From: Dryococelus australis
Lineage: Eukaryota; Arthropoda; Insecta; Phasmatodea; Phasmatidae
DNA: 64,000 nucleotides
Direction of reading: 5' to 3'
Assembly (NCBI GenBank): GCA_029891345.1
Contig: CM057000.1
Coordinates: 129,183,338 to 129,247,337, forward strand
Positions 7,344 to 63,859 of the stretch are shown piece by piece (within the stretch, counting starts at the first letter, position 1; the number at the start of each line of letters is the position of its first letter). The notes beneath the pieces were generated by a model. The model ran no database searches and was not told the origin of the DNA. It saw only the letters and a program-made list of their open reading frames with translations. The translations under genes and the position numbers were made by a program.

Positions 7344-8057
7344 TGTTACATGCAAACGCCTGAGGGACGTATCTGAGTTCGTGAGAGATGGAGTGCTTAA
7401 TAACCATAAAAATTAAAGAACACAGCTATTATTTACAGCATTAAATTATCTGTCTCCACTTTAACTGTTTCCATTTAACAGTGAACGTAATATTTGATGT
7501 CTATTTCAACTCTAATTAACATCCTTCTTAATTTTCTCTGTTGGTTACAGTTAATTAACTCATTATCAACTTGTACATCTGTTGCCATCATTTATAATGT
7601 CTTTCACTCACGCCTCTAGTAAAATAGTCCAGCCTGCCAGCCACGTCCTTAACTGCTCGATACTCGAAGTCGCAGACTTCCCTTTCGCTGGCCAATTCTC
7701 CCGCTGCTCTTCTTCTATCGCTCGGAACTCAACCACTCATTCACTCATCAACTCCAACTCAACTCGCGGCCTGGAGGCCTACCGCAATATTTATAGTATT
7801 CCCCTGATCTTCTCTAAGGTTCATCGTACCTCGAGTCCCACTGAGAGAACGAGGTCAGTTATCCACAACATTCTTCACATAAAAGAAGAAAACAATACTG
7901 CCAGGATAATCAGCGTGAGTGAAAGAGATTAAAGTATCAGGCTAGTTTTCTGTAACTGATACATGGCCGCTGCTATCACATAATGACTCTGTCCTCAGAT
8001 TCACTCGCTCACGCCAGGCGGGTCAAGGTCAGCAGCGCAGACCAGCGACACGTAACA
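7344..8057 (-). repeat. 3' LTR of the Ty3/gypsy fossil
   Basis: About 714 bp, bounded by inverted TGTTAC and GTAACA termini on both strands. It is collinear with the LTR at 10010-10679 and with the solo LTR at 62902-63859, which lies in the opposite orientation. Shared blocks include the tcaaggtcagc region near 8026 and attatttacagcattaaatt near 7430. Confidence 0.75.
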
Positions 8058-10009
8058 CTGCCCCCACCTCCTGCCCCTCCTGTTCTTCCCGAACAGACTC
8101 TGCTACGTCCGGACCTTCATTGAGTGCCAGTCGGTCGATGTCGATAATCTTCGGCTCCACCCGAGAGCCTCGACAACAAATCCGAAATATAGCATAATTT
8201 ATCTTCTTCGGACTCATGTAAGGGCCCCTCCAAACATTTCTGTAGATTCGAGTACTCTTCATCTGTGTGGTTTGTACAGCCAAACCAGTTGTCCTAGAAA
8301 TACCTCGTACGACATTCTACTATCATACCAGGTCTTCATCCTGTCACTATACGGTCGTTTGTACCTTACAGGACAAATCATTTCATTAATGTTTTGAAAA
8401 AATAAAGCAACTCCAGAATTTTCCCTTATATCTTCCTTTAGACCAATCTGAAAAATGCTGGCACTTGCGGTTGATACTGCAGGCTGTAGCTGGATCCTCG
8501 TCCAAAGGACAATGAAGCACTGGTAGCTCCTGTCGAGTGCCTCTCTTTCTAGAATTCACGCAAGTGGTTCTTTGACCACCGAACACATTCCTTCATGGGA
8601 TTGCTATAAGCAGAGGTACTAATGAGAGGTGCTAATTCTCTCAGTCGCTTTCCATGACATGGGAACCTCTCTCTTTTATATGGTACACTGTTCACAGGGC
8701 TTCTGGACAGCACTCTTAGGTCATGCGCATTTTCCGACTGCTTTGTGAGGTGTGCAGCTTGCAGCATCAGTTCGTCGATGCGGTGTTTCAGTTGTTGGGC
8801 ATATGCACGAAACTCATAAATTTCTCTAAGCGAGTGCTTTTATACGCCCATCGAGAACATTTGATCTTCACCGTGCCATCTCTTTACTAGCTGCTGCTTC
8901 TGTTGTCAATAAGCTCCTAGGTGCCCCAGCTGTCCACGTGACCAACACTCCCTCCGTTTGGGTCGGGGAGGCGAAGCTCTTTAGCACGAATCCTGGAAGC
9001 GATATCCCTCAAAGCCAACTGCAACTCGTTCAGTGTCTTCGTCATTCTATCTTCGTATTTATTCAGCTTCACTGTGCCTATTGAACTTCGGGATGTGGGC
9101 TCCTGTCTTGTATACTCCACCTCCAGTGCTCGGGCCAGGGTGTCTTGCATGTTGTGGGGTGAAGCCAGACCTACCACTTGCCGTACCTCTGTGTCTGCTA
9201 TGGAATCGATGAAGAAGCCGACTGATATATGATGTCACGCGCCTCCTCGGAGCACCCTTCCAGAGATAGGTGAGAGAGCCGCACGATGTCTTACCATAGC
9301 TCCTGCAGTGGCTCCCCTGGTCGCTGGGTGCGGCTACGCAGTTGTTCGCGGCGGGCATGTGGCAGGTACCGGTCGCCGAAACGTAACTCCAAGGCCGACA
9401 CCAGTGTGGGGTACTCCAGTCGATGTCGCTCTGGCAGAGATTGTAGTATACTCGATGCGGGGCCTCTCAGTACAGCGGCGAGGTAGTATGCCCGCTGTTT
9501 TGTTGTCCAGCCATTTAGGTTAGCGACTATTTCCAACTGGTGTTTGTACTCCCACCATGAAGTCTGGCCATCGTAAGGGGCGGGCTTAATTGAAACTCCC
9601 TTCCCCACTGCCAGCTGCGCGACACCAATTCCACAAGGCTGCTGGCTCTCCTCCGAGGTCGCTGTGTTAGTGACTACGGTTACTGCTTCCCCACTTTTCT
9701 CGTCTACCGATGTGGTGCTTGTGGAAATTCGTGGCCAAAGAAATTCCTCCATCTGCTTCTCTACTGCATTGATCGATTTCATTTCATGCTCGACACTTCC
9801 CACCCTGTCATTCACACTGTTCATTCTCACTGTCAATTTCCCCGTCCACACAGTCAATTCTCGTGTTCACCAACTCGCCAATGCTTTCTATTTTCCTATC
9901 AACTAAATCACTGGCGTTACTTATCTCGCCATTTACATTCTCATTTCCACTTACAACTGCTGAACTAATTTGGTTATTTACAGTTTCGTTCACACACTCT
10001 TTCCCTCTT

Positions 10010-10679
10010 AGCGAGGGATGGAGGTCTTAATAAAAAAAACTATAAGAAACTAAATTTGATTTCTTATTTATTCGCTCTGCTATTATTTACAGCATTAAAT
10101 TATTTGTCTCCACTTTTATTATTTTTATTTAACAGTGAGCGCAATATTTAATCTCCATTTAAAATCTAATGTTGTACTTTATATTGTCTCTGTTGGATAC
10201 AGTAATTTAACTCATACTCATACCACATGTTAAGTCGCCATCATGTATGTATTTCACTCAAGCATCTAGTCCACTAGTCCAGCCTGCTAGCCACGCCCTT
10301 CACTGCTCAATACTCGCAGTCGCAGACTTCTCTTCACGCTATCACTTTTCCCGCTGCTCGTCTTCTGTCATTCGGAACTCAACCAATAATTCATTCATCA
10401 AACTCCAACTCAACTCGGAGGACTGCCGCAATATTTATAGTCTTGACCCTATCGCCTGGAAGGTTTAACGCACCCCGAGTCGCGCTGAGAGAACGAGAGG
10501 TCAGTAATCCAGACCATTCTTCAGATAAACGCAAGAATCAATACTTCAAAGGTAAGCAGGGTGCGTAAAAAAGAGATTAAGGCGTCTGCTTACTTTCTGT
10601 AAGTGATACGCCCGCCGCTATCACATAACTACTACTCCTCTTCGCTCGCTCGCACGGCGCCGACCAGCGATCCGTAATA
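10010..10679 (-). repeat. 5' LTR of the Ty3/gypsy fossil
   Basis: The block attatttacagcattaaatt at about 10083 and the outer end gcgatccgtaata match the other two LTR copies. Its inner boundary near 10010 is less clear than in the other copies, because the last ~50 bp seen in them do not align here. Confidence 0.65.
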
Positions 10680-13724: not shown

Positions 13725-13950
13725 CAGGCTGTTCACGGTAAAGTGAGTACTTTTGAGGCCCTAGTTAGGCCCTTTTTTTATCCTTTCGCCACTTTTTAAA
13801 ATAAATATTGGAATGTAAACAGTAAACACAGTGTATATTTTTTAACCAGACTCGAAAATTAACAACTATGGCTACAATAAAATATATTTATTGACTATTA
13901 TTCCAAATGAGAGGGCTTCAAAAAGTGCTCACTTTACAGTGAACAGCCTA
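13725..13950. mobile_element. Short pogo-like MITE, copy A
   Basis: 226 bp with terminal inverted repeats of about 28 bp (core AGGCTGTTCACGGTAAAGTG) and TA on both sides. The inner sequence of each end also matches the matching end of the 1,965-bp element at 15675-17639. The left part reads 'gaggccctagttaggccc' and the right part ends in 'attccaaatgagagggctt'. It has no coding capacity and must have moved with a transposase supplied in trans. Confidence 0.88.
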
Positions 13951-14712: not shown

Positions 14713-15674
14713 AGGGGCCGGAAGAGGAGATAGGGGCACACGTGAACCACGGTACTAAAAGAGAAAGAAACCGCGGAGTAGTGACGGCTAGACGTAAAGG
14801 GAGCGCTGTCATCGCGCTGAAGTCAGCGCATTATATAGACAAATGTGCATTCAAAACAGAAAACAGCTAAACTCTGGAAGTAAATGCTTCAGGCCAGTTC
14901 CGCGTGGACGAGCTTTTTACGCATTAAGTAAAGCGCACTAAATTCAACACTTCCGAGAGCAGTTTTTAAAAGCGCCATTTGCAAAGGGCGTTAACAAAAT
15001 ATAATTTTTAGGAAGTGCGCGAGATGGAATATGTTGATATTTTATATATATATATATATGTTGGAACAAGGTTGTGTTACCAAGCAAAACATTGCAATTG
15101 CAAATATGTATAAACTTAATTAAATATTGCCACCAGGATAGTTTGAACTACCGTGTACGTCATTAATATTAACGTATGTGCCCTTTTCGCAGTGAATATT
15201 CCCCAATAGGACTGGTGAATTCAATGGCAAAGTGGACAGTTGTTAATGTTTAGACGTAATGTGCATCTCTACTGCGGTTTTTTAAAAGTAAATGTATATT
15301 CTGCAAAAAAAAAAGTCTCTTCATTTGGGCTTTAACAGCGAAACAATTTTATATATAGCTCACATGTCCAAAGTAAAAAATAAATAATAGGGTTTTAATT
15401 GTTATGTTAAATTTAAAATGTATATAGTTCCTCTATATCAAGCAGATAAATGTTTTTAAAATAATAAACCAAAATTCGCACAGCTTTCACTTGTTTTCTT
15501 ATTGTTTTGCAACAGAGTAAGAAAGTTTGTTAGGCGCGCATATCAGCAATAATCGTTTTCGATAAAGGAGTTTAATGGCAGTAACCATAGTAAAGCATTA
15601 GTCTTCTTTGCTGGCAGTGAATAAATTTGAGGTAATTCTGCTCCGTGAATTAAGTAAGTACTTTGATATTATAA
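14713..15674. other. Non-coding DNA, no gene seen
   Basis: AT-rich with a (TA)n tract near 15044-15060. Nothing else could be recognised. Confidence 0.5.
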
Positions 15675-17639
15675 AAGGCTATTCATGGCAAAGTGAGCAC
15701 TTATGAAAGCCCTCTCATTTGGAATAATATTCGATAGAAAAATTTTATTTTAGCTTTAGGCGTTAACTTCCGAGAAAAGGTAAGGTAATTTGCCAGTAAT
15801 TTTCATAACAGATACATTTTAATAGTTTTCTGAATTCGACAATTTTCAAAAACAATTTAAATGTATCAGCCACATCTTAACGTCATACAACAAAATTACT
15901 GTTATAGTTTTCTCCTACTTTTAATTTTCGATAAAAGTGCAAATGTTTGTGCGGTAAGGTATGTTTGCAATAGGGGGAGGTAATTTTGCAACACTAGTAA
16001 GGCAATTTCACATTAAAAAGTTTTTCATACATGTCTGAGTTACTTGCACACACATTCGTTTAATCAGAGTCAGAATCGCCTCCACACGTGTCGCACATGT
16101 AGACTATGTCGTCACTTGGGCGTTTTTTGGCACTATTCATGGTATGGTGCCCTGCAGAATGAGCACTGAATCCATTTTGCACAGGTCTTCTTTGAAACAG
16201 CCATTGAGAAGAACTGGAAACACACACACCACATTCCCAATAATCTGCCTTCATCGTATGTTTTTCTGGCCTTTTTTTTTTTAAGAACTTTTGGTCTTGT
16301 GGGTATATTGACTCTGCAGTCCAGAACATCCAGGTTGAGGGTTTTGTGCCGAATGCTCAGGCTCTGGTGGGTTGAGGCATTTGGCTGACTTATCTTTGTT
16401 TGACTGTTTCGACAGCCATCCTTTTATGAGCACCGTGTGAATCCATTAACAGAACCACTGGTCTTGCATCAGGAATTGAAATGACAAAAAACTGGAACCA
16501 CTCAAGAAATAGTTTTGTGCATATCCACCCTTTAGGGAAAGTTTCATTACAGCATTCGGCAAGCTGTTATTTTTTCAAACTGTCATTCCACCTCACACCC
16601 TTAAATATGATCATAGGCAGAATAAAAGTACTATCAGCACAAACACAACCTACAAGAGTATGGATTTGACCTCGTTCTCCATAACTTCTCTTGCAAACGT
16701 ATTTTTTCCCAACTTGACAGATAACTTTGTTTGGTTTGACTACATAAGTAAGTCCTGTCTCATCAACATTCCAGATTCTGGAAGGCTGATATTTAATTTC
16801 TAATTTGCACAAAACAGGGCATCTAGCTTACTGAAATAGTCATCGACAATGACAGGGTTTGCCATTGACGCACGGTATGCGGAGAGATTTTCAGGAACTC
16901 TTGGGCATAAATTAGAGCGTTATTTAAATTTTGAATACCACCACCATTTCCTAGCAATTTTTTTTGGCAGGTTTCAACCAGTGTTGTCGATTTACTGACT
17001 CAGCGAGGTCATATGCGAGCTTTCTTACTTGGATCGCAGTGAGTCAAAGTCCAAGTTCTTGCATTTCAATAACAAAATTTAACACACACTGTTCAATGTC
17101 TGAAGGTAGGGCGAATGGTCCTCACAGTTTCAACACTTGGGGATGGTTTAAGTCTTCATTGTCACTGATGAATTTTTTTGGTGTGTTGTGAGGTATACCA
17201 AACAATTTTGTTGCTTTATAGATAGTTATGTTTTCACGCACTACTGTTTTCGCAGCGCTAAGTAAGTCAAGAAATTTCATAGTTTCTGTAACGGCAAATT
17301 TTTTTAATACAAAGCTTCACGGCAGACATTTTCGGCTTCACTTCACGTATGAAAAATGCCGTAGCAGATGTAGAGAGCATACAATGAGCTGCACCTACTG
17401 TTGGCGAAGGGTCGAACTACTAGCGAGTAAGGAAGTTCAGGACGATGTGAATGAAAAACTGCTGCGAAATTACCAGTGCTGCAGAATTATCTTGCGTTAC
17501 CCTACTGTGGAATGTACACTCTGCGTTGATTACTTGCACAGCAATATTTAGTTAAAAAGGTGGTTAAAAAGTTAATTTTGGCTGAAAGGAAAAAGGCAAC
17601 TAGAGCCTTAAAAGTGCTCACTTCGCCGTGAATGGCTTA
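15675..17639 (-). mobile_element. Pogo-like DNA transposon, decayed, parent of the MITEs
   Basis: The ends (ggctattcatggcaaagtga at the left, cttcgccgtgaatggct at the right) form the same inverted repeat as the MITEs, next to TA. On the minus strand the transposase order is complete at the N-terminus. A psq-like HTH (KTVVRENITIYKATKLFGIP, then NTPKKFISDN) lies near 17270-17150. RKLAYDLAE follows near 17010. The CENP-B/Tc5 HTH (VPENLSAYRASMANPVIVDD) lies near 16900-16840. The DDE core has its first Asp in WNVDETGLTYVV (frame 16812-16567) and its second in PVVLLMDSHGAHK near 16430. The usual 'PPHTTHLLQPLDV' segment with the third acid was not found. A Cys-containing tail, VYMCDTCGGDSDSD, ends at 16060. 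Several frameshifts and stops show it is inactive. Confidence 0.85.
16060..17300 (-). pseudogene. Pogo-type transposase pseudogene
   Basis: This is the coding part of the 15675-17639 transposon. The longest intact pieces are 81 codons (16812-16567, start of the DDE core) and 89 codons (16329-16060, C-terminal tail with CDTCGGDSDSD). Pogo-type transposases excise and reinsert DNA at TA sites using a DDE/D catalytic triad. Here two of the three acids are visible in separate frames and the third is missing, probably by internal deletion between about 16400 and 16330. The pieces before 16812 need at least three frame changes to follow. Confidence 0.75.
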
Positions 17640-17999
17640 TACAGATGTTCCGTGTTGTCATTAGAATAGGACCCCCTTTCCCCCTCACTATCAGCTTAAT
17701 ACACCGCGCTATATCAAGGTCAGCTCGCATCGTTGTCGCATACCCGACTGAATCGAACCGTTTATATATCAAGGGCGATGTCTGTGTTGCAGATTCGTGT
17801 GTGTTGTACCTACTGTTTACGTCAAATATTTCGAGTGAAGGCCGAGTCTTATTTCACACCCCGTTCACCTCGTCAGTCTCTGGTTTGGCCTGTTCCATCC
17901 CTCTTATCGACCACAAGGAGTGCCGTGAGGGAACGGCCTCTCGTCGGCCCCAAGGAGTGTCGTAGTGAACGACAGTTTCAAAAAGAAGAGTTTCGAAGA
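17640..17999. other. Unassigned DNA between transposon and SINE
   Basis: Moderate GC. A repeated phrase occurs at 17918-17933 and 17951-17961 (caaggagtgccgtgagg and caaggagtgtcgtagtg). The two short plus-strand open frames here are not recognisable. Confidence 0.4.
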
Positions 18000-20724: not shown

Positions 20725-20956
20725 TAGGCTATTCACGGTAAAGTGAGTACTTTTAAGGGCCTAGTTACTTTTTACTTTCAGCATTTTTTTTCTTTAAACA
20801 TGCTTTTAAATAAATATTGTCATATAAGTAATAAACACGTGTATATTCCACCGTACTTGGAAGTTTAACGTCTATGGCTGAAGTAAAGCATACTTATTGA
20901 CAATTATTTCAAATAAAAGGGCTTTCGAAAGTGCTCACTTTACCATTAATAGCCTG
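20725..20956. mobile_element. Short pogo-like MITE, copy B
   Basis: 232 bp. The ends aggctattcacggtaaagtg and ctttaccattaatagcctg are inverted copies flanked by TA on both sides (20723-20724 and 20957-20958). Subterminal parts match those of copies A, D, E and H and of the element at 15675-17639. Confidence 0.88.
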
Positions 20957-21130: not shown

Positions 21131-24100
21131 GCGACATGGCAGAAAAGGAGAGCGCTGAGAGCGTCCGAGGTCAGTCGCCCACCAGGGACGTGGAAAAGGA
21201 GAGCGCCGAGAGCGTCCGAGGACAGTCGCCCACCAGGGACGTGGAAAAGGAGAGCGCCGAGAGCGTCCGAGGACAGTCGCCCACCAGGGACGTGCAAAAG
21301 GAGAGCGCCGAGAGCGTCCGAGGACAGTCGCCCGCCAGGGACGTGGAAAAGGAGAGCGCCGAGAGCGTCCGAGGACAGTCGCCCGCCAGGGACGTGGAAA
21401 AGGAGAGCGCCGAGAGCGTCCGAGGACAGTCGCCCGCCAGGGACGTGGAAAAGGAGAGCGTCCGAGGACAGTCGCCCATCAGGGACGTGGAAAAGGAGAG
21501 CGTCCGAGGACAGTCGCTTACCAGGGACGTGGAAAAGGAGAGCGCCGAGAGCGTGCGAGAACAGTCGCCCACCAGGGACGTGGAAACCCGCCAGAGACGT
21601 GGAAAAGAAGAACGCCGAGAGCGTCCGAGGACAGTCGCCCGCCAGGGACGTGGAAAAGGAGAGCGCCGAGAGCGTCCGAGGACAGTCGCCCGCCAGGGAC
21701 GTGGAAAAGGAGAGCGCCGAGAGCGTCCGGGGACAGTCGCCCGCCAGGGACGTGGAAAAGGAGAGCGCCGAGAGCGTCCGAGGACAGTCGCCCGGAAGGG
21801 CCGTGGAAAAGGAGAGCGCCGAGAGCGTCCGAGGACAGTCGCCCACCAGGGACGTGGAACAGGAGAGCGCCGAGAGCGTCCGAGAACAGTCGCCCCAGGG
21901 ACGTGGAAAAGGAGAGCGCCGAGAGCGTCCGAGGACAGTCGCCCGCCAGGGACGTGGAAAAGGAGAGCGCCGAGAGCGTCCGAGGACAGTCGCCACCAGG
22001 GACGTGGAAAAGGAGAGGCGCGCGAGATGCGTCCGAGGACAGTCGCCCGCCAGGGACGTGGAAAAGGAGAGCGCCGAGAGCGTCCGAGGACAGTCGCCCC
22101 AGGGACGTGGAAAAGGAGAGCGCCGAGAGCGTCCGAGGACAGTCGCCCGCCAGGGACGTGGAAAAGGAGAGCGCCGAGAGTCCGAGGACAGTCGCCCGCC
22201 AGGGACGTGGAAAAGGAGAGCGCGAGAGCGTCCGAGGACAGTCGCCACAGGACGTGAAAAGGAGAGCCGAAGTCGAGGACAGTCGCCCCCAGGACGTGGA
22301 AAAGGAGAGCGCCGAAGCGTCCGAGGACAGTCGCCCACCAGGACGTGGAAAAGAGGCGCCGAGAGCGTCGAGGACAGTCGCCCCAGGGACTGGAAAAGGA
22401 GAGCGCCGAGAGCGTCCGAGGACAGTCGCCCCAGGGACGTGGAAAAGGAGAGCGCGCGAGAGGTCGAGGACATCGCCCACAGGACGTGGAAAAGGAGAGC
22501 GCCGGGACAGTCGCCACAGGACGTGGAAAAGGAGAGCGCGAGACGTCGAGGCAGTCGCCCCAGGACGTGGAAAAGGAAGCGCCGAGAGCGTCCGAGGACA
22601 GTCGCCCCCAGGGACGTGAAAGGAGCGCGAGAGGTCGAGGACAGTCGCCCCAGGGACTGGAAAAGGAGAGCGCCGAGACGTCCGAGGACTCGCCCACAGG
22701 GACGTGAAAAGGAGCGTCCGAGACAGTCGCCCCAGGGACGTGGAAAAGGAGAGCGCCGAGAGCGTCCGAGGACAGTCGCCGAGGACAGTCGCCCCAGGGA
22801 CGTGGAAAAGGAGAGCGCCGAGAGCGTCCGAGGACAGTCGCCCCAGGGACGTGGAAAAGGAGAGCGCCGAGAGCGTCCGAGGACAGTCGCCCACAGGGAC
22901 GTGGAAAAGGAGAGCGCCGAGAGCGTCCGAGGACAGTCGCCCATCAGGGACGTGGAAAAGGAGAGCGCCGAGAGCGTCCGAGGACAGTCGCCCGCCAGGG
23001 ACGTGGAAAAGGAGAGCGCCGAGAGCGTCCGAGGACAGTCGTCCGCCAGGGACGTGGAAAAGGAGAGCGCGAGAGCGTCCGAGGACAGTCGCCCAACAGA
23101 GACGTGGAAAAGAGAGCGCCGAGAGCGTCCGAGGACAGTCGCCCGCAGGGACGTCGAAAAGGAGAGCGCCGAGAGCGTCGAGGACAGTCGCCAACAGGGA
23201 CGTGGAAAGTTGAGCGTCCGAGGACAGTCGCCCGCAAGGGACGTGGAAAGGAGAGCGCCGAGAGCGTCCGAGGACAGTCGCCCGCCAGGGACGTGGAAAA
23301 GGAGAGCGCCGAGAGCGTCCGAGGACAGTCGCCCATCAGGGACGTGGAAAAGGAGAGCGTCCGAGGACAGTCGCCCATCATGGACGTGGAAAAGGAGAGC
23401 GCCGAGAGCGTCCGAGGACAGTCGCTCACCAGGGACGTGGAAAAGGAGAGCGCCGAGAGCGTCCGAGGACAGTCGCCCGCCAGGGACGTGGAAAAGGAGA
23501 GCGCCGAGAGCGTCCGAGGACAGTCGCCCTCCAGGGACGTGGAAAAGGAGAGCGCCGAGAGCGTCCGAGGACAGTCGCCCACCAGGGACGTGGAAAAGGA
23601 GAGCGCCGAACGCGTCGAGGACAGTCGCCCACAGGGACGTGGAAAAGGAGAGCGCGAGTGTCCGAGGACAGTCGCTCACCAGGGACGTGGAAAAGGAGAG
23701 CACCGAGAGCGTCCGAGGACAGTCGCCCATCAGGGACGTGGAAAAGGAGAGCGCCGAGAGCGTCCGAGGACAGTCGCCCATCAGGGACGTGGAAAAGGAG
23801 AGCGTCCGAGGACAGTCGCCATCAGGGACGTTGAAAAGGAGAGCGTCCGAGGACAGTCGCCCACCAGGGACGTGGAAAAGGAGAGCGCCGAGCGCGTCCG
23901 AGGACAGTCGCCCCCCAGGGACGTGGAAAAGGAGAGCGCCGAGAGCGTCCGAGGGCAGTCGCCCATCAGGGACGTAGAAAAGGAGAGCGCCGAGAGCGTC
24001 CGAGGACAGTCGCCCAACAGCGAGTGGAAAAAGAGAGCGACGAGAGCGTTCGAGGACAGTCGCCCACCAGGGACGTGGAAAAGGAGAGCGCGAAGCGTCC

Positions 24101-26528
24101 GAGGACAGTCGCCCACCAGGGACGTGGAAAAGGAGAGCGCCGAATGCGTCCGAGGACAGTCGCTCACCAGGGACGTGGAAAAGGAGAGCGCCGAGAGCGT
24201 CCGAGGACAGTCGCCCGCCAGGGACGTGGAAAAGGAGAACGCCGAGAGCGTCCGAGGACAGTCGCCCGCCAGGGACGTGGAAAAGGAGACGTCGAGGACA
24301 ATCGCCATCGACGTGAAAGGAGGCGTCCGAGGACAGTCGCTCACCAAGGACGTAAAAAAGGAGAGCGCCGAGAGCGTACGAGGACAGTCGCCCGCCAGGG
24401 ACGTGGAAAAGGAGAGCGCCGAGAGCGTCCGAGGACAGTCGCCCATCAGGGACGTGGAAAAGGAGAGCGTCCGAGGACAGTCGCCCCAGGGACGTGGAAA
24501 AGGAGAGCGCGCGAGAGCGTCCGAGGACAGTCGCCCACCAGGGACGTGGAAAAGGAGAGCGCCGAGAGCGTCCGAGGACAGTCGCCCCAGGGACGTGGAA
24601 AAGAGAGCGCCGAGAGCGTCCGAGGACAGTCGCCCACAGGGACGTGGAAAAGGAGAGCGCCGAGAGCGTCCGAGGACAGTCGCCCGCCAGGGACGTGGAA
24701 AAGGAGAGCGCCGAGAGCGTCCGAGGACAGTCGCCCATCAGGGACGTGGAAAAGAGAGCGCAGGACAGTCGCTGGCGGGAAGGAGAGCGTCCGAGGACAG
24801 TCGCCCACAGGGACGTGGAAAAGGAGAGGAAGCGTCCGAGGACAGTCGCCCACCAGGACGTGGAAAAGGAGAGCACCGAAGAGCGTCCGAGGACGTCGCC
24901 GCAGGGCTCAGGGACGTGGAAAAGGAGAGCGCCGAGAGCGTCCGAGGACAGTCGCCCACAGGGACGTGGAAAAGGAGAGCGCCGAGAGCGTCCGAGGACA
25001 GTCGCCCACCAGGGACGTGGAAAAGGAGAGCGCCGAGAGCGTCCGAGGACAGTCGCCCGCCAGGGACGTGGAAAGGAGAGCGCCGAGAGCGTCGAGGACA
25101 GTCGCCATCAGGGACGTGGAAAAGGAGAGCGCCGAGAGCGTCGAGGACAGTGGCCCGCTCAGGGACGTGGAAAAAGGCGAGAGCGTCCGAGGACAGTCGC
25201 CCCCAGGGACGTGGAAAGGAGAGCGCCGAAGCGTCCGAGGACAGTCGCCCACCAGGGACGTGGAAAAGGAGAGCGCCGAAGCGTCCGAGGACAGTCGCCA
25301 CCAGGGACGTGGAAAAGGAGAGCCGAGAGCGTCCGAGGACAGTCGCCCACAGGGACGTGGAAAAGGAGAGCGCCGAGAGCGTCCGAGGACAGTCGCCCAT
25401 CAGGACGTGGAAAAGGAGAGCGTCCGAGGACAGTCGCCCATCAGGGACGTTGGAAAAGGAGAGCGCCGAAGCGTCCGAGGACAGTCGCCCCCCAGGGACG
25501 TGGAAAAGGAGAGCGCCGAGAGCGTCCGAGGACAGTGCCCACCAGGGACGTGGAAAAGGAGAGCGCCGAAGCGTCCGAGGACAGTCGCCCCCAGGGACGT
25601 GGAAAAGGAGAGCGCCGAGGCGTCCGAGGACAGTCGCCCACCAGGACGTGGAAAAAAGGAGACGCCGGGCCCGTGAAAAGAAGCGTCCGAGGACAGTCGC
25701 CCGCAGGGACGTGGAAAAGGAGAGCGCCGAGAGCGTCCGAGGACAGTCGCCCACAGGGACGTGGAAAAAGGAGAGCGTCCGAGGACAGTCGCCACCAGGG
25801 ACGTGGAAAAGGAGAGCGCCGAGAGCGTCCAGACAGTCGCCCCCAGGACGTGGAAAAGGAGAGCGCCGAGAGCGTCGAGGACAGTCGCCCCCAGGGACGT
25901 GGAAAAGGAGAGCGCCGAAGCGTCCGAGGACAGTCGCCCCCAGGGACGTGGAAAAGGAGGAGGCGTCCGAGGACAGTCGCCCACCAGGGACGTGGAAAAG
26001 GAGAGCGCCGAGAGCGTCCGAGGACAGTGCCCACCAGGACGGAAAAGGAGACGCCGAGACGTCGCCCGGGAGGAAAGGAGAGCGCCGAGAGCGTCCGAGA
26101 CAGTGCCCACCAGGGACGTGGAAAAGGAGAGCGCCGAGGACAGTCCCCCCCAGGGACGTGGAAAAGAGAGCGCCGAGAGCGTCCGAGGACAGTCGCCCAC
26201 AGGACGTGGAAAAGGAGAGCCCGAGAGCGTCCGAGGACAGTCGCCCACAGGGATGGAAAAGAGAGCGCCGAGAGGTCCGAGACAGTCGCCCGCAGGGACG
26301 TGGAAAAGGGAGCGCCGAGAGCGTCCGAGGACAGTCGCCCCATCAGGGACGTGAAAAAAGGGCAGCGTCCGAGGACAGTCGCTCACCAGGGACGTGGAAA
26401 AGGAGAGCGCCGAGAACGTCCGAGGACAGTCGCCCGCCAGGGACGTGGAAAAGGAGAGCGCCGAGAGCGTCCGAGGACAGCATCGCTCGCCGAGGAGGAC
26501 GGGATAAGGAGAGCGCCGAGACTTTAAT
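21131..26528. repeat. Large minisatellite, 51-bp (17-codon) unit
   Basis: About 5.4 kb and roughly 105-110 tandem copies of a GC-rich unit that translates as ESAESVRGQSPTRDVEK on the plus strand and LGALLFHVPGGRLSSDA on the minus strand. A recurring 42-bp variant lacks nine bases (three codons, AES). It appears near 21460, 21500, 23360, 23790-23850, 24460, 25410, 25770 and 26370. Because unit and variant are multiples of three and stop-free, very long open frames arise: plus 21136-22257 (373 codons, starting gacATGG), 21599-23977, 23104-26553, and minus 24876-21073 (1267 codons). The blocks 22200-22720 and 24760-26350 are rich in single-base indels. The repeat is certain. Whether any frame is a gene is not; no unique coding sequence adjoins it. 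Confidence 0.95.
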
Positions 26529-28837: not shown

Positions 28838-29386
28838 CAAAAAGTAATTGGGCACTTGTCCACAATGTTTGCTCGGTGGTTGTCACCCCATTAGAATCTC
28901 GTAGTGCCACCTCTTGCGGCTATAACAGCAGCCACCCTGTCTGGCATGCTCTCTACGAGCGTTTGCAGGACATCCACGGGATTCGTCGCCATTCCTCTTG
29001 CAACCATTCCATGAGTTGAGCAATGGATTTTGGCCGCGCCGGACGAGCCCTCGCCCGGCGATCCAATTCGTCCCAAATATGTTCTATGGGGTTGAGGTCG
29101 GGGCTCTGGGCGGGCCAGTCCAATCGGCCAACATTGTTGTCGGCATACCACTGCATAGTAGCCCTTGCAACATGGCACCTGGCATTGTCATCCTGGAAGT
29201 AACACGGGTCCATTCCGTAAAAACGCCACAATGTTGGGAGTATTTCATTATCCAGAATGTTACAATAGGCCTCTGTGTTCATGCTACCTTGGACAAACAC
29301 CAGCGGTCCTACGCCGAAGGCCGTGAAACACAAGTCAACTGACATACAGAATTACCTATCTTCACGGGTACCCAATTACTTTTTGG
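28838..29386 (-). mobile_element. Internally deleted Tc1/mariner element (DD34E)
   Basis: 549 bp flanked by TA (28836-28837, 29387-29388), with inverted ends CCAAAAAGTAATTGGG at both sides. It keeps only the C-terminal part of a Tc1-type transposase on the minus strand, so it is about one third of a normal 1.6-kb element. The N-terminal HTH domains and the first catalytic Asp are gone. A cut-and-paste transposase of this type would act on TA targets, but this copy cannot make one. Confidence 0.9.
28891..29345 (-). pseudogene. Tc1 transposase, C-terminal part
   Basis: The frame 29345-28953 holds the second catalytic Asp in QDDNARCHVAR and the Glu in DLNPIEHIWDEL, with 34 residues between them, which is the DD34E spacing of Tc1. 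The true C-terminus, LVESMPDRVAAVIAARGG then TTRF, is in another frame and ends at 28891, so a frameshift lies near 28,990. The family usually ends 'SMPRRVQAVI.ARGG.T.Y', which fits. Confidence 0.9.
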
Positions 29387-32296: not shown

Positions 32297-32525
32297 TAGC
32301 CTGTTCACGGTAAAGTGAGCACTTTTTAAGGCCCTTATAAATTTTTCCTTTCTTCAAATTTCCATCTTCCTGCTGATTTTTAATATGAACATTGCAGTGT
32401 GACCAATAAACACATTTCACCACCACCAAAATATAATGCCTTCGGCTGCAATAAGATATATTTATAGGCGGTTAATGACTGTTGGGAGGGCCTTAAAAAG
32501 TGCTCACTTTACCGTGAACAGCCTA
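32297..32525. mobile_element. Short pogo-like MITE, copy D
   Basis: 229 bp with TA on both sides (32295-32296, 32526-32527). The ends tgttcacggtaaagtgagca and tgctcactttaccgtgaaca are near-perfect inverted copies, so it is one of the best-preserved members. No coding capacity. Confidence 0.92.
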
Positions 32526-33830: not shown

Positions 33831-35077
33831 AAATTGAAATCTGACGTAACCAGCTCCTCGCGACTTCAAAGTCCTGATAATTACATCACTGGGACAACGT
33901 GCCACATGCGTTCGCACTCGCCTTACCAATATTTTGCATATGAAGTACTTATTACTACTAGGCATCACCAGCAGTCCCATTTTCTGCGATCGCAATTATA
34001 CAAGTTTTACATTAACAATTAGTAAAAAGTCATTCAAACAAAAATGGCATACTTTTATATCAAAACAAGTTAAAACGCTTGAGATACGCCATATTTATGA
34101 AACAACCAAACATCGCACACACATGGGTTTGATTTAAAAAGTGTGAAGATACCCCGAAGAGACTATACCTACACTAAGAGTGGTGCATACTGTACGTTCG
34201 GTCTTCTTACGGAATTAACATACATACTGTTTGTAAACGTTCGGAGCATTGGTTGGCAACACAATGGCGCCAAAGGAAAACAGTTTCGATTATACAAATA
34301 TTCTGTTTCGGGGTATGAAATAAATTTCAAAATCTCAAAGAAAATTTCTCAAGTTTGCGTTTGTTTATAATATATATATATATATAAATAATAAACGAAT
34401 TATTATATTATATAAAAATATTGCAAGCGATAAGCTGGAAACAGAAATTTTTTATATTAAAAAAATGTTTTGGAATTATTTCAACCACACTAAATTTTGA
34501 AATAAAAATTAATTATTTCCAACACACAATATTAAGGTTAAACGAAAACAATATTTTACCCTTAAGAAACAAATAAAAAAAAATAATTAAGGGTGAGGGG
34601 CTCTAACCCAACCAAAAACAGGGCATAGTTCCCTCTCCTAACCTCCAATGAAGGGAAATGCCAAATGAAAAAAAAAATCAATTAAGGGTAGGCCTATCGC
34701 ATCTTAACAAAAACAAAGGGATAGGAAACTTCCTGCGGTCATAAAACCTAGGGCTTCCGAAGAAAAAAAGAGAAAGAGCAATCAAAAATACCAATACTGA
34801 CATCGCGCTTAACAAAAAAAAAAAAAAAAAAAAACTTAATTTAAATCAAAATTTAAAAAAAAAAATTTACCCCGAAAATACGCGGCGCAACAATACCTGT
34901 TTTTTTTTTTTTTTACGATGTAGGCCTATATTACCTGCTAAAATCACTTTTTTTTTTTTAAAAACACTATACAATGACGTTTCCTCAGTAAGTAGGTATG
35001 CACTTGGCTGTAAGTATTTAGCTTGTTCGAGACAAAAGTCATACAGGACTTAGGAATCACTTTTTTTTTTTTTTTTA
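33831..35077. other. AT-rich, homopolymer-rich DNA
   Basis: Many poly-A and poly-T tracts (for example about 34810-34833, 34850-34866, 34900-34915) and a (TA)n near 34370-34387. No gene was recognised. Confidence 0.5.
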
Positions 35078-35231
35078 AGCATCGAAGTGTAAAAACTAGC
35101 AGATTTGTAAAAATTTTCCTTTCCTGAAAATGCCACAGTTTCACTTGACCGACGCATGGATAAAGTGATGAGGCCCACAGTAGATCTGAATCAGGAATTT
35201 CAAAAGTACTCATTTTGCCGTGAATAGCCTA
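35078..35231 (-). mobile_element. Long-type pogo-like MITE, copy I, truncated
   Basis: The right end, caaaagtactcattttgccg then tgaatagcct plus TA, is the family terminus. The interior (gcatcgaagt, then ccacagtttcacttgaccga, then gataaagtgatgaggccc) is the reverse complement of the interior of copies F and G. The other end was not found, so this copy is truncated. Confidence 0.7.
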
Positions 35232-39781: not shown

Positions 39782-40012
39782 TAGACTGTTCACGGTAAAG
39801 TGAGCGCCTTTGTAGCCCTAGTTACATTTCCTTATCAGCCATTTTTTATCCTTTAGCTACCTTTTAAAATAAATATTGTCATACAAGAAATAAGCATAGT
39901 GTGTATATTCCATCACAATCTAAAGTTAACATGTAATGCTAAAATAATGTTATTGATTATTATTCCAAATGAGAGGGCTTTCAAAAGTGCTCACTTTACC
40001 GTGAATAGCCTA
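39782..40012. mobile_element. Short pogo-like MITE, copy E
   Basis: 231 bp flanked by TA (39780-39781, 40013-40014). The left part (agccctagttacatttcc, then taaaataaatattgtcatac) and the right part (attccaaatgagagggcttt) match the two ends of the element at 15675-17639. Confidence 0.9.
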
Positions 40013-40557: not shown

Positions 40558-40977
40558 TAGCCTGTTCACGTTAAAATGAGCACTTTTGAAAGCCCTGCTA
40601 AAAATCTAACTGTATACCCGTTGTGTGTTCCTCCGCCGTATGTAAAATTAACATTGTCATGGGCCTCGTCACTTTATTCAGCCGTCGTTCGAATGAGACT
40701 GTGAAATTATTAAGAAAGTAAATACTTTACAAACATGCAAATTTTTTAACTTCGATGCATTAGAAAGACAGAAAGCGAAAGAAATGATATTAAATAATCA
40801 CAAATGGTTAGCTAAAATTTTTTATTCGACGTTAAGATATGGAACTACTTTCCAACCATCGTTGCTAACTTTACTGGGCACATGTCACTCAGTACGCCCA
40901 TTAAAATATATGCATGCACAGGCAGAGACTTTTTTCTAAGGTTCATTTCTAAAGTGCTCACTTTATCGTGAACAGCA
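40558..40977. mobile_element. Long-type pogo-like MITE, copy F
   Basis: About 420 bp. The ends cctgttcacgttaaaatgag and tgctcactttatcgtgaaca are family termini, with TA at the left and a degraded site at the right. The interior (gtatgtaaaattaacattgt, gagactgtgaaattattaag) matches copy G and reversed copy I but not the short MITEs, so it is a separate subfamily. Confidence 0.82.
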
Positions 40978-42250
40978 TTTGCCTGCTTTTTTTTTTTTTT
41001 ACTGCCGATAGGACAATATGATTTGGAAGCGGTGGATGCTGGACAGGAGCAGGTAGATTTTCTCGTCTGACCAAGGTGACACTAACCAAATAACGTCCTC
41101 GATAATTATCATTAATATACCTTGTCCACGCGCTGGTAAGCCACCTGCTCTGTCACGACCTGTCACGCAGATGTTAGGGGAATTTTTACTACCCTCTGTG
41201 CGTGATAATATGACGTAAAACCCAATACACTATTGTGTCACACACCTACCAAAGCGACGACTCCTGGCCAAAAAAAAAAAAAAACTAAATGGTCCATTGA
41301 CACGATGAACATTGCCTTGTGTCTGGAAGAATAGGAGCTGTGTAAGAAAAGCCACATCAGTCACATTCGCCATGTACGAAAAATGCAGGATCTGTGTATG
41401 TCCTACGCTAGTTGTAGAACAGGGGTGCTTTGTGGAGCGTAAATCTATTGCATAACTTTAATTCACTGCAACCTCCCCCTTCCCTTTTTTTCCATACGGA
41501 TAAAAACTATTGGAATTTAAATTATTAATAAGCCTTTCATTTCAATAAAATTACAATTGCTGTAAGCTATGATGCATGTTATTATTCTATATTAAGTAAC
41601 ATTTGTTCTAATAAATCAAAGAAAACAGGGAAAAGTCGGGGAATTTCATACGACAGGGAAACGTCAGGTAAATAAATGTCAGGGAATTTTCCCCAAGGTT
41701 AGGGAAGATGTAAATATTGCTACTCTACAAAATTTGTTAGTAGTGTGAATACAGGATGATGCGATTATGACCATATCGATTTTAAAATTTCCAATTTTAT
41801 GTTCGTGAACTAGCAATAATACAACTTTGCCAAGTGTCACAGGGCCTATACGTGCAAAATAAAGATTTGCGCGTTTGTGATGGGCTTTGTGGGAGTGTAA
41901 ATCTAATGCATAACTTGAATTCACTGCAACACACAATGACTCTTGCCTCGCAGAGAGCTGTCAGGATGTTTACCCACTTCGTGATCCGACACGCAGTGCA
42001 ATCGACGCACTCTGATACACTTGCCACCAGGCAAGTCATTTAGTGATGACGAAATATGTCAGTTCACTCAGTGGCTATTAACAGCTGGTATGTAGCCTCT
42101 CCGTGATTCAGAGAGCACAGCATCACCAAACATACGACTGACATGCACAAGAACCTGATACGACAGACATTGCTTTCCATTGCCATTTTTAAATACTTTT
42201 TAGGTAAAAAAATATGTACCCATTAATAAATAGAAATTTCATGTTCCAGG
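40978..42250. other. Non-coding DNA, no gene seen
   Basis: A phrase occurs twice: 41440-41470 (gcgtaaatctattgcataac, tttaattcactgcaac) and 41893-41931 (tgtaaatctaatgcataact, tgaattcactgcaac), about 455 bp apart. This suggests an old direct duplication. No gene was recognised. Confidence 0.45.
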
Positions 42251-49210: not shown

Positions 49211-49984
49211 AGTATTTGTAAAAGGACAGCTCTGGTGCAAGTGGCGCCTGGCGCAGGGCTGGCGGTGGCCATCTTGGATAACGTCGTGCGGAACTTCCTG
49301 ATCTACCATTCCTGTTGGGAATCGGCCATCTTGTCAGCCAGTATGGCCTTGACCTTTCATTTTCGAGCTCAAATTCGGATTTGAAATCCCAAATTTGGAT
49401 TTTCAAACTCTAATTTGGTTATTGATTCCGAATTTTGTTTTGAAGGTCTCCGACAGCGTCCATCTTGGTTTTCACTTCCCGTTCTTGCATTCCATCGTCG
49501 AAGGTTTCCTCGGGATCCTCCCATGTTTTCTTACTTTAACATTCCACCTTTTTTCCTCTTCCTCTCGTTCTCTCTTCATTAGTTCTCTTATTCCCAGAGG
49601 GGGTTTTTCCTTCCATCTCGTTTGTCGTCTGCTGGTGTCGGCCATCTTGTTTTGTAATAGTCTGCTGGAGGCGGCCATCTTGTTTGCCGTCCATATTTGA
49701 TTCCCACATCGGCCGCTAGAGTGTGTGCTTGCGGCCACCTTTGATTCTCACACTTGCCACCAGAGCGAAGTTCCGCTGGTCGCAGCTAGAAGCGCTGGCG
49801 GTCATATTGTGTTCGCTCATAGTCCGCCAGGAGCGCTGGTAATTTATTTTAAGTGTGAACTCAAAAAATACTGGAGTTGTGCGGTTTCGTTCCGGCAACC
49901 CTCAATCCCACAGCCAAGTAGCTTATACGTATATCAAGATGGATGCCTCCAGCAGACGACTACAAACAATATGTGTGTCAAACG

Positions 49985-50017
<33 letters not shown>

Positions 50018-50738
50018 GATTACAAGTCTGTCCGGCGAGTGCGCATTCTCTCGTAACTGTCTTATTTCAACTCTTATCGGTCTTCATGCGATGGTAGTCT
50101 TGTGGTTAGTACACAGGATTGGCGGCCGAAGAGTCGCACGACTCCAGTATTTTTTGAGTTCACGCTTAAAATAAATTACCAGCGCTCCTGGCAGACGAAG
50201 AGCGACACAAAATGACCGCCAGCGCTCCTAGCTGCCACCAGTGGAACTTCGCTCTGGTGGCGAGTGCGAGAATCAAACAATAGCCTCAAGCACACAGCCG
50301 CCTCCAGCAGACGACTACAAAACAAGATTGCCGCCTCCAGCAGACGACTACAAAACAAGATGGCCGACACCAGCAGACGACAAACGAGGTGGAAGGAAAT
50401 ACCCCCTCTGGGAATGAGAGAACGAAGGAAGAGAGAGGAAGAGAGGAAAAAAGGTGGAATGTAAAAGTAAGAAAACTTGGGAGGACCCCAAGGAAACCGT
50501 CGGCAGTGGAATGCAAGAACGGGAAGTGGAAACCAAGATGGACGCCGTCGGAGACGTACAAAACCAAATTTGAAAGAGAAAATCCAAGGTCAAGGTCATA
50601 CTGACTGACAGGATGGCCGATGCCCAACAGGAATGGTAGAGCAGGAAATTCCGCACGACGTCATCCAATATGGCCGCCGCCAGCCTGCAGCCCTGCGCCA
50701 GGCGCCACTTGCACCAGATCTGTCCTTTTACAACTACT
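49211..50738. mobile_element. Foldback element with very long inverted arms
   Basis: The left arm, about 49211-49885, and right arm, about 50126-50738, are inverted copies along nearly their whole length. Matching anchors are agtatttgtaaaaggacag with ctgtccttttacaactact, gtggcgcctggcgcagggct with its reverse near 50694-50711, and ctggagttgtgcgg with cgcacgactccag. Arms carry an internal ~33-bp tandem subrepeat (cctccagcagacgactacaa). The ~240-bp loop holds a poly-T run of about 30 (49988-50017) and a tRNA-like phrase near 50090-50130. There is no transposase. The long arms and subrepeats recall foldback (FB-type) elements. Open frames on both strands are shadows. Confidence 0.85.
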
Positions 50739-59617: not shown

Positions 59618-59970
59618 TAGGCTATTCACGGTACAATGAGCACTTTTGAAAGCTTTGTATGCACGTCGTGTATTATTCCACCGTATGTAAAATTAACGTT
59701 GCCATGGACCTCGTGACTTTATTCTTGCGTCGGTCAAGTGAAACTGTGAAATTATTAGAAAAGTAAAATTACACAAATCCGCACATTTTTACACTTCGGC
59801 ACATTAGAAACAAAATAAAAAACCGAAAGAAATAAGTTAAGTCATTATAAATGGTTACCTAACACTTTTTATTTGACGTTAAGATATGGAATTACTTTCC
59901 CTCCATAGCAGGAATAGTGACTTTTTCTAAGGCTGATTTCAAAAGCGCTCATTTTATCGTGAACAGCCTT
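59618..59970. mobile_element. Long-type pogo-like MITE, copy G
   Basis: About 353 bp with TA at the left (59616-59617). The ends ggctattcacggtacaatga and gctcattttatcgtgaacag are family termini. The interior (ccgtatgtaaaattaacgtt, gtgaaactgtgaaattatta) matches copy F. Confidence 0.85.
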
Positions 59971-62901: not shown

Positions 62902-63859
62902 TGCTACGTGTCGCTGGTCTGCGCCGCTGACCTTGACCCACCCCGCTCGAGTGGACGGAAAAGGACAGTAGTGATTATAAAAGGGCAGCAAGTCAATGGA
63001 ATGTTTTGAATGACAAACTAGCGATAATCCTTGAGTTGTGAAGGCATCCTGCCGCGGTAGCCCTTTGGTGTCCCACCGCTCCTGACCTTCGGCGGATAGG
63101 AATGCTGCGTTTATTTGAAGAATGCTCTGGGTTACCGACATCATTCTCTCAGCGCGACTCGGGGTGCGTTGAACCTTCCAGATGGCCAGGGCGAACGATA
63201 TCTAGGTGTGACAGGCCTCCGAGTCATTGTAATTGTTGAGTTAAGCAGCGATAGAAGACAAGCAGTGAGAAAAGTTACCAGTGGAAGGGAAATCTGCGAC
63301 TGCGAGAATCAAGCAGTGAACGGTGCGGCTGGCAGGCTGGACTATTTGACTAGACGCGTGATAGACCGAACATGTGTTAATAATGAGTACGAGTTAATTG
63401 AGTGTAACCTACCAGAGACAATTAAGAAGAACGTTAACTAAAATTGAAACAGATAAATACTGAGCTCACTGTTAAATAAAAATAATAGCCGAGACGAATA
63501 ATTTAATGTTGTAAATAAGAGCTGTATGACTAAACTAGACATAAAATATAGTTATTTTATTTTTATTAAGACCTCCATCCCTCACGAACTCAAATACGCC
63601 GCTCAGGCGTCCCATGCAGGTATAGGCTGTTCACGGTAAAGTGAGCCCTCTCAACAGACATTAACCACTAATAAAATGTATTTTATTGCAACCTCAGGCG
63701 TTTACTTTTGGTAGTGGTAAAATGTACACACTGTGTTTATTAATCACAAAGCAATATTGCAAAAAAAAAAAAAAAAATGCCGGCAAGATAGAAATTGGCT
63801 GAAAGAAAAATTTTGCAGGGCCTAAAGAAACACTGCTTTACCGTGAACTGCTTATAACA
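62902..63859 (+). mobile_element. Solo LTR of the Ty3/gypsy family, interrupted by MITE H
   Basis: Starts TGCTACGTGTCGCTGGTC and runs collinear, in opposite orientation, with the LTR at 7344-8057. It reaches gcgtcccatgcagg at 63620, then TA. After the MITE the sequence resumes as TA then ACA, completing the family's GTAACA-type end at 63859. ATAT lies directly outside both ends (62898-62901 and 63860-63863), a plausible 4-bp target duplication. No interior is present, as expected after LTR-LTR recombination. An old fossil. Confidence 0.72.
63623..63854. mobile_element. Short pogo-like MITE, copy H, inserted in an LTR
   Basis: 232 bp flanked by TA (63621-63622, 63855-63856). The ends ggctgttcacggtaaagtga and tttaccgtgaactgctta are family termini. 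The insertion site is the TA of the LTR's terminal GTAACA, so this copy arrived after the LTR element. Confidence 0.88.

Follow-up and report, generated by a model that had tools for sequence, protein, structure and literature searches.

A long, damaged transposon and five MITEs of about 230 bp carry the same inverted ends in the window analyzed here, by which we mean the whole stretch of 64,000 nucleotides from Dryococelus australis. This raises the question of whether the long element gave rise to the short ones, as the initial annotation proposed in calling it their "visible parent", or whether it is only a relative of the sequence that did.

A decayed pogo-type element

The 1,965-bp element with MITE-type inverted ends that had been reported is real. 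Its ~40-bp TIRs agree end to end at 27 of 41 positions, and at 23 of the first 28. The right flank is TA (17640-17641), while the left flank is AA (15673-15674), presumably a decayed TA. We recognize the following features.

15675..17639, minus strand (the strand of the transposase remnant): decayed pogo-type DNA transposon of 1,965 bp, identified by its inverted ends, flanks, and DDE_1 match
17122..17316, minus strand: psq-type HTH remnant (PF05225, 19.6 bits, cut-off 20.4)
16567..16827, minus strand: opening part of the DDE domain, carrying the motif WNVDETG, an open reading frame inside the read-through DDE_1 match
16390..16566, minus strand: DDE region that includes the second catalytic Asp (LLMDSHGAH; DDE_1 E 2.2e-05 with this piece alone)
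16060..16177, minus strand: possible C-terminal PHD-type zinc finger remnant (PF00628), split over two frames

The transposase remnant lies in a minus-strand frame that runs from 17316 to 16390, where a psq-type HTH is followed by a Tc5/CENP-B-like HTH stretch and then by the first half of a DDE domain. The DDE part of the remnant, as initially described, is borne out. When the frame is read through with stops written as X, Pfam detects DDE_1 (PF03184) at E 2.9e-08 and 33.9 bits (cut-off 22), covering positions 4-99 of the 177 in the profile. The DDE_1 catalytic domain is thus present, over a partial profile only. The two HTH domains are less secure, as both matches fall under their curated cut-offs. 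HTH_psq, listed above, drops to 15.5 and 16.0 bits in longer readings of the element, and HTH_Tnp_Tc5 reaches 15.0 bits against a cut-off of 22.2, only with that piece searched alone; Pfam does not report it for longer readings of the remnant.

Two Asp motifs, WNVDETG and LLMDSHGAH, are readable in the remnant. Among the pieces searched singly, only 16390-16566 matched DDE_1; the WNVDETG piece (16567-16827) on its own matched no Pfam family, and a third catalytic Asp was not found by profile search. The main frame (17316-16390) contains nine stops ahead of the closing one, several of them at places where the reading seems to shift into other frames. With many stops and part of its catalytic domain missing, this copy is dead.

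A PHD-type finger at the C-terminus is suggestive at most. A 39-amino-acid sequence, put together by eye across two frames, matches PF00628 at E 0.0015 and 19.0 bits (cut-off 24), and a longer 74-amino-acid piece gives E 0.12 only. We rejected a TAT_ubiq match in one frame (E 0.018, under cut-off) as noise. The transposase remnant has no match in the PDB at E up to 1. Searches with an 80-amino-acid DDE piece returned four pattern-matching stretches among viral contigs and 34 pattern matches among bacterial and archaeal genome contigs, with no confirmed relative in either set. The 23-base core of the TIR has no exact match in the viral contigs, and an Rfam scan of the 64-kb window returned nothing at gathering scores.

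The portions of PMC7386202, PMC7325037, and PMC8472432 that treat the pogo superfamily describe a TA target duplication, a DDE_1 domain, and a psq/Tc5-type HTH order. The corresponding portion of PMC7386202 adds TIRs of mostly <=60 bp and a total length of 1.2-5.2 kb, and the catalytic triad is given, in what these sources say of it, as DD(29-56)D, alongside an N-terminal DNA-binding motif such as HTH_psq, HTH_Tnp_Tc5, or CENP-B_N. The long element resembles the superfamily in its TA, its DDE_1 domain, and its length, and would also agree in the psq/Tc5 order of its putative HTH stretches; it differs in being decayed and in having HTH matches under cut-off. Both its ~40-bp TIRs and its 1,965 bp lie within the ranges given, and TA, as a target duplication would leave it, is seen on both sides of all five MITEs described below, and on the right side only of the long element. 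Where PMC7386202 deals with Fot and Fot-like elements, it assigns them the pair HTH_psq and HTH_Tnp_Tc5 and TIRs of mostly 40-60 bp. Since both HTH matches are below their cut-offs, we do not place the element among the Fot elements. Most of the latter, in the passages of the same three papers that concern them, have a TAA target duplication, whereas the family studied here has TA. The TIRs of bee Tigger elements, at 10-33 bp in the relevant part of PMC8472432, are shorter than the ~40 bp of this family.

Short copies that combine both ends of a long element

The five MITEs are given below, with strands relative to the plus strand of the long element. The copies that the initial annotation had called A, B, D, E, and H are assumed to be copies A, B, C, D, and H here.

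13725..13950, minus strand: MITE A, 226 bp, TA on either side
20725..20956, minus strand: MITE B, 232 bp, TA on either side
32297..32525, minus strand: MITE C, 229 bp, TA on either side, in a subgroup with H
39782..40012, minus strand: MITE D, 231 bp, TA on either side
63623..63854, plus strand: MITE H, 232 bp, TA on either side, in a subgroup with C

A profile built from these five MITEs, without the long element, matches that element in two blocks, at 15676-15774 (profile positions 2-100, E 2.3e-21) and 17505-17638 (profile positions 103-235, E 9.8e-23). A profile of A, B, and D finds blocks at profile positions 2-100 and 101-233. Blocks that lie far apart in the long element are therefore adjacent, or nearly so, in the coordinates of the MITEs. 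We find that the five MITEs correspond to the left ~100 bp of the long element joined to its right ~137 bp, which accounts for nearly the whole of each MITE. The five-MITE profile also gives weak opposite-strand matches at 17638-17605 (E 0.00078) and 15714-15676 (E 0.002); these are the inverted termini themselves. The long element can be divided accordingly.

15675..15774, plus strand: left ~100 bp, retained in the MITEs (five-MITE and interior-only A/B/D profiles)
17503..17639, plus strand: right ~137 bp, retained in the MITEs (same two profiles)
15775..17502, no strand assigned: 1,728 bp without a counterpart in the MITEs, containing the recognized coding remnants and bounded by the best single join, 15774|17503 (A, B, and D together)

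The match had been said to go beyond the termini, and it does. We trimmed 42 bases off each MITE end and used 20 shuffled windows, with dinucleotides kept, as a control. The interior-only A/B/D profile still finds both blocks, at 15717-15774 (28.2 bits) and 17503-17593 (40.0 bits); no shuffled window scores above 13.0. For the interior-only profile of all five copies, the blocks score 23.9 and 45.7 bits (best shuffled, 10.5). The interior-only C/H profile, whose best shuffled score is 9.3, finds the right block at 25.2 bits and misses the left one. This same C/H profile detects A (39.8 bits), B (19.1 bits), and D (18.5 bits) over most of its length, again against a best shuffled score of 9.3. 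Thus, both subgroups have the same rearranged interior.

Taken copy by copy, the subterminal similarity is uneven. Local alignments to the interior of the long element, with 100 shuffles per copy, are clear for A (35 vs. a shuffle maximum of 25), B (39 vs. 23), and D (39 vs. 23), and modest for H (27 vs. 23). MITE C alone shows no subterminal similarity above its 100 shuffles (21 vs. 21). The link of C and H to the long element runs partly through A, B, and D. All five copies nonetheless have the makeup of two ends of a longer element, with TIRs and target-site duplications, C being weak when considered singly.

The position of the join was scanned by scoring all left ends from 80 to 124 against all right starts from 1810 to 1849, in element coordinates. 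Scored jointly, A, B, and D favor 100|1829, which is 15774|17503 in the window (score 333.5), closely followed by 100|1832 (333.0). The initial annotation had placed the join near a GTTAAC/GGTAAC sequence and suggested microhomology. This proposal is not supported, as the GTTA join at 15765|17500 scores 310.5 for the same three copies and is outscored by a later join in each of the five copies taken singly. The raw scores, without shuffle control, are 93.5 for the GTTA join against 104.0 for the copy's own best join in A, 109.0 against 119.0 in B, 108.0 against 115.0 in D, 69.0 against 73.0 in C, and 58.0 against 65.5 in H. The sequence of the long element shows no microhomology at 15774|17503, although the true parent may have differed there.

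The best joins of single copies are 104|1837 (A), 100|1829 (B), 99|1829 (D), 100|1833 (C), and 109|1837 (H). Left ends thus fall at 99-109 and right starts at 1829-1837, a spread of up to 10 bases. The best local alignment of A extends to position 160 of the long element, beyond the join, whereas the join scan places its break at 104|1837. A join that is nearly common to the five MITEs points to one deletion followed by amplification. A single founder deletion is therefore probable for all five, although the tree is unrooted and a single origin is not provable from it. Together, the two-block match and the common join support the claim that the MITEs are internal-deletion derivatives, with a member of the long element's family as their source.

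The same ends with other interiors

Three further elements in the window share the ~40-bp ends.

40558..40979, plus strand: element F, 422 bp, with the same ~40-bp ends and an interior unlike that of the long element
59618..59970, plus strand: element G, 353 bp, with the same ~40-bp ends and an interior in common with F (and in part with X)
35060..35231, minus strand: element X, a one-ended fragment (F/G profile E 6.1e-26; interior-only, 75.2 bits)

On the right side, F has TG and G has TC in place of TA. Across the window, the interior-only F/G profile, run to E 0.5, picks up F, G, and X and nothing else. Comparison of F, G, and X with the interior of the long element gave nothing beyond shuffles, the nearest case being F reversed (22 vs. 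a shuffle maximum of 23). A six-frame search returned end matches and matches of 8-15 residues at E 0.32-0.71. We therefore reject F, G, and X as deletion products of the long element, since their interiors do not match it beyond shuffles. These interiors come from another source. In F and G, the full five-MITE profile does reach ~60 bases beyond the terminal repeat, at 40662-40558 (F, 30.5 bits) and 59706-59618 (G, 18.2 bits). Once the termini are taken away, all that is left is a single G match of 6.7 bits, which scores less than the shuffled windows. A faint subterminal kinship is possible.

It may be, although we hold this only tentatively and think it rather doubtful, that one set of TIRs serves at least two unrelated MITE interiors, one in A, B, C, D, and H and another in F, G, and X. 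If true, one pogo transposase would amplify independently derived or captured interiors, and the lineage of the long element would be the source of only one of them.

With the long element, the five MITEs, F, G, and the fragment X, there are nine elements with common ends in 64 kb. When elements are this dense, a long copy is expected to lie near short ones, so that their closeness, initially described as rarely seen, is unremarkable. The inverted ends of MITE C are nearly perfect (38/41), while those of the other seven two-ended elements agree at 23-31 of 41 positions; end homogenization or a younger age are possible explanations.

The window contains other repeats, and parts of it resemble repeats common in large arthropod genomes. 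A 5.4-kb array at 21142-26521 has a 51-bp unit (17 codons) that reads EKESAESVRGQSPTRDV in frame at its start; its many length changes of 1-2 bases could reflect decay or long-read assembly error. At 49211-50738, a large inverted repeat that resembles a fold-back or long-TIR element has arms several hundred bases long, with pieces that are 84-96% complementary. A dispersed repeat occurs at either end of the window in inverted pieces (7356-10496 and 62902-63610), and the matched part of the latter copy ends 13 bases before MITE H starts. A gag-like open reading frame at 9291-9866 matches Retrotrans_gag at E 0.0043, its 17.7 bits falling short of the 24.1 cut-off. On the minus strand, 28953-29351 holds a DDE_3 remnant (E 1.5e-08, 35.0 bits, cut-off 28.6), by appearance of a Tc1-type transposase.

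Parent or relative

Identity to the long element is 71.1% for A, 77.1% for B, 74.9% for D, 62.7% for C, and 62.5% for H. Among the MITEs, pairwise identity is 75.7-78.6% within A, B, and D, 73.0% for C and H, and 63.0-71.8% between the two groups. In an unrooted neighbor-joining tree (1,000 bootstrap replicates), C+H is supported at 100%, A+C+H at 86%, and A+C+D+H at 85%, groupings that place the long element next to B. Six informative columns are common to the long element and B alone. The long element is no nearer to the MITEs than A, B, and D are to each other. Thus, the description of this dead copy as the visible parent is not upheld; judged by its sequence, it is a decayed relative of the MITE parent and no recognizable parent itself.

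We consider it very probable that the long element is a dead copy of the pogo superfamily and that the five MITEs derive from another copy of its family by internal deletion, probably through one founder. The long element would be a damaged member of this superfamily, which is regarded as Tc1/mariner-related and as moving by cut-and-paste. The founder, a copy of the same family, would have kept only about its first 100 bases and its last ~137. What was deleted is presumably represented by the interior of the one long, damaged element in the window. An intact transposase of the family, recognizing the ends that were kept, would have moved the founder in trans. The founder would then have spread and split into the subgroups A/B/D and C/H, with all copies decaying afterwards.

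It is unlikely that the parent was another long member of the TIR family, perhaps the source of F, G, and X as well, and that the long element seen here is a cousin, alike in its subterminal parts through shared transposase-binding sequence and not through descent of the element as a whole. This reading agrees with the presence of the ~40-bp ends around another interior in F, G, and X, and with C and H being just 62-63% identical to the long element. However, the A/B/D match covers 58 subterminal bases in one block and 91 in the other, reaching the join on both sides, which would exceed the expected need of binding sites.

Descent from the long element itself, when intact, with each MITE arising by its own deletion through GTTAAC microhomology, is very improbable. 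Although the long element belongs to the same sequence family, groups with A, B, and D rather than with C and H, and has GTTA near both break regions, the five MITEs have nearly one join, and the GTTA join is worse in each. Moreover, its identity of 71-77% to A, B, and D is about that of these copies among themselves (76-79%), and we therefore reject it as the literal parent. Chance similarity or a simple-sequence artifact has a negligible probability: the regions are AT-rich by eye and copy C, taken singly, does not exceed the highest of its shuffles, but the two ordered blocks (E ~1e-21 to 1e-23), which remain far above shuffled windows without the TIRs, refute it.

Descent of the five MITEs from another copy of the family would follow a known route. 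The Arabidopsis Emigrant MITE family reportedly arose from a pogo-like transposon, a finding attributed to Feschotte and Mouches (in 2000), and Lemi1 proteins are said, after work by Loot et al. in 2006, to bind the TIRs and subterminal repeated motifs of Emigrant MITEs. The Emigrant/Lemi1 case is cited in PMC7386202, PMC3517528, and PMC5454002. As in Arabidopsis, the MITEs here probably come from a pogo-like element; the long copy here differs in being dead and decayed, and it would belong to another sequence family. The part of PMC3517528 on the Drosophila Mar MITEs (hAT) explains them by internal deletion of a long element, relic copies of which survive, and by later amplification. Mar, as described there, is like the present case in having MITEs formed by internal deletion alongside relic long copies, and unlike it in being hAT, whereas the long element here is pogo.

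The origin of MITEs by internal deletion and subsequent spread is the textbook route, and in this respect the locus is ordinary and introduces no new principle. It provides a base-level example of MITE formation in a pogo-type family, probably by one internal deletion, with a decayed long relative nearby. Together with the corrected join, this is useful for the repeat annotation of this genome.
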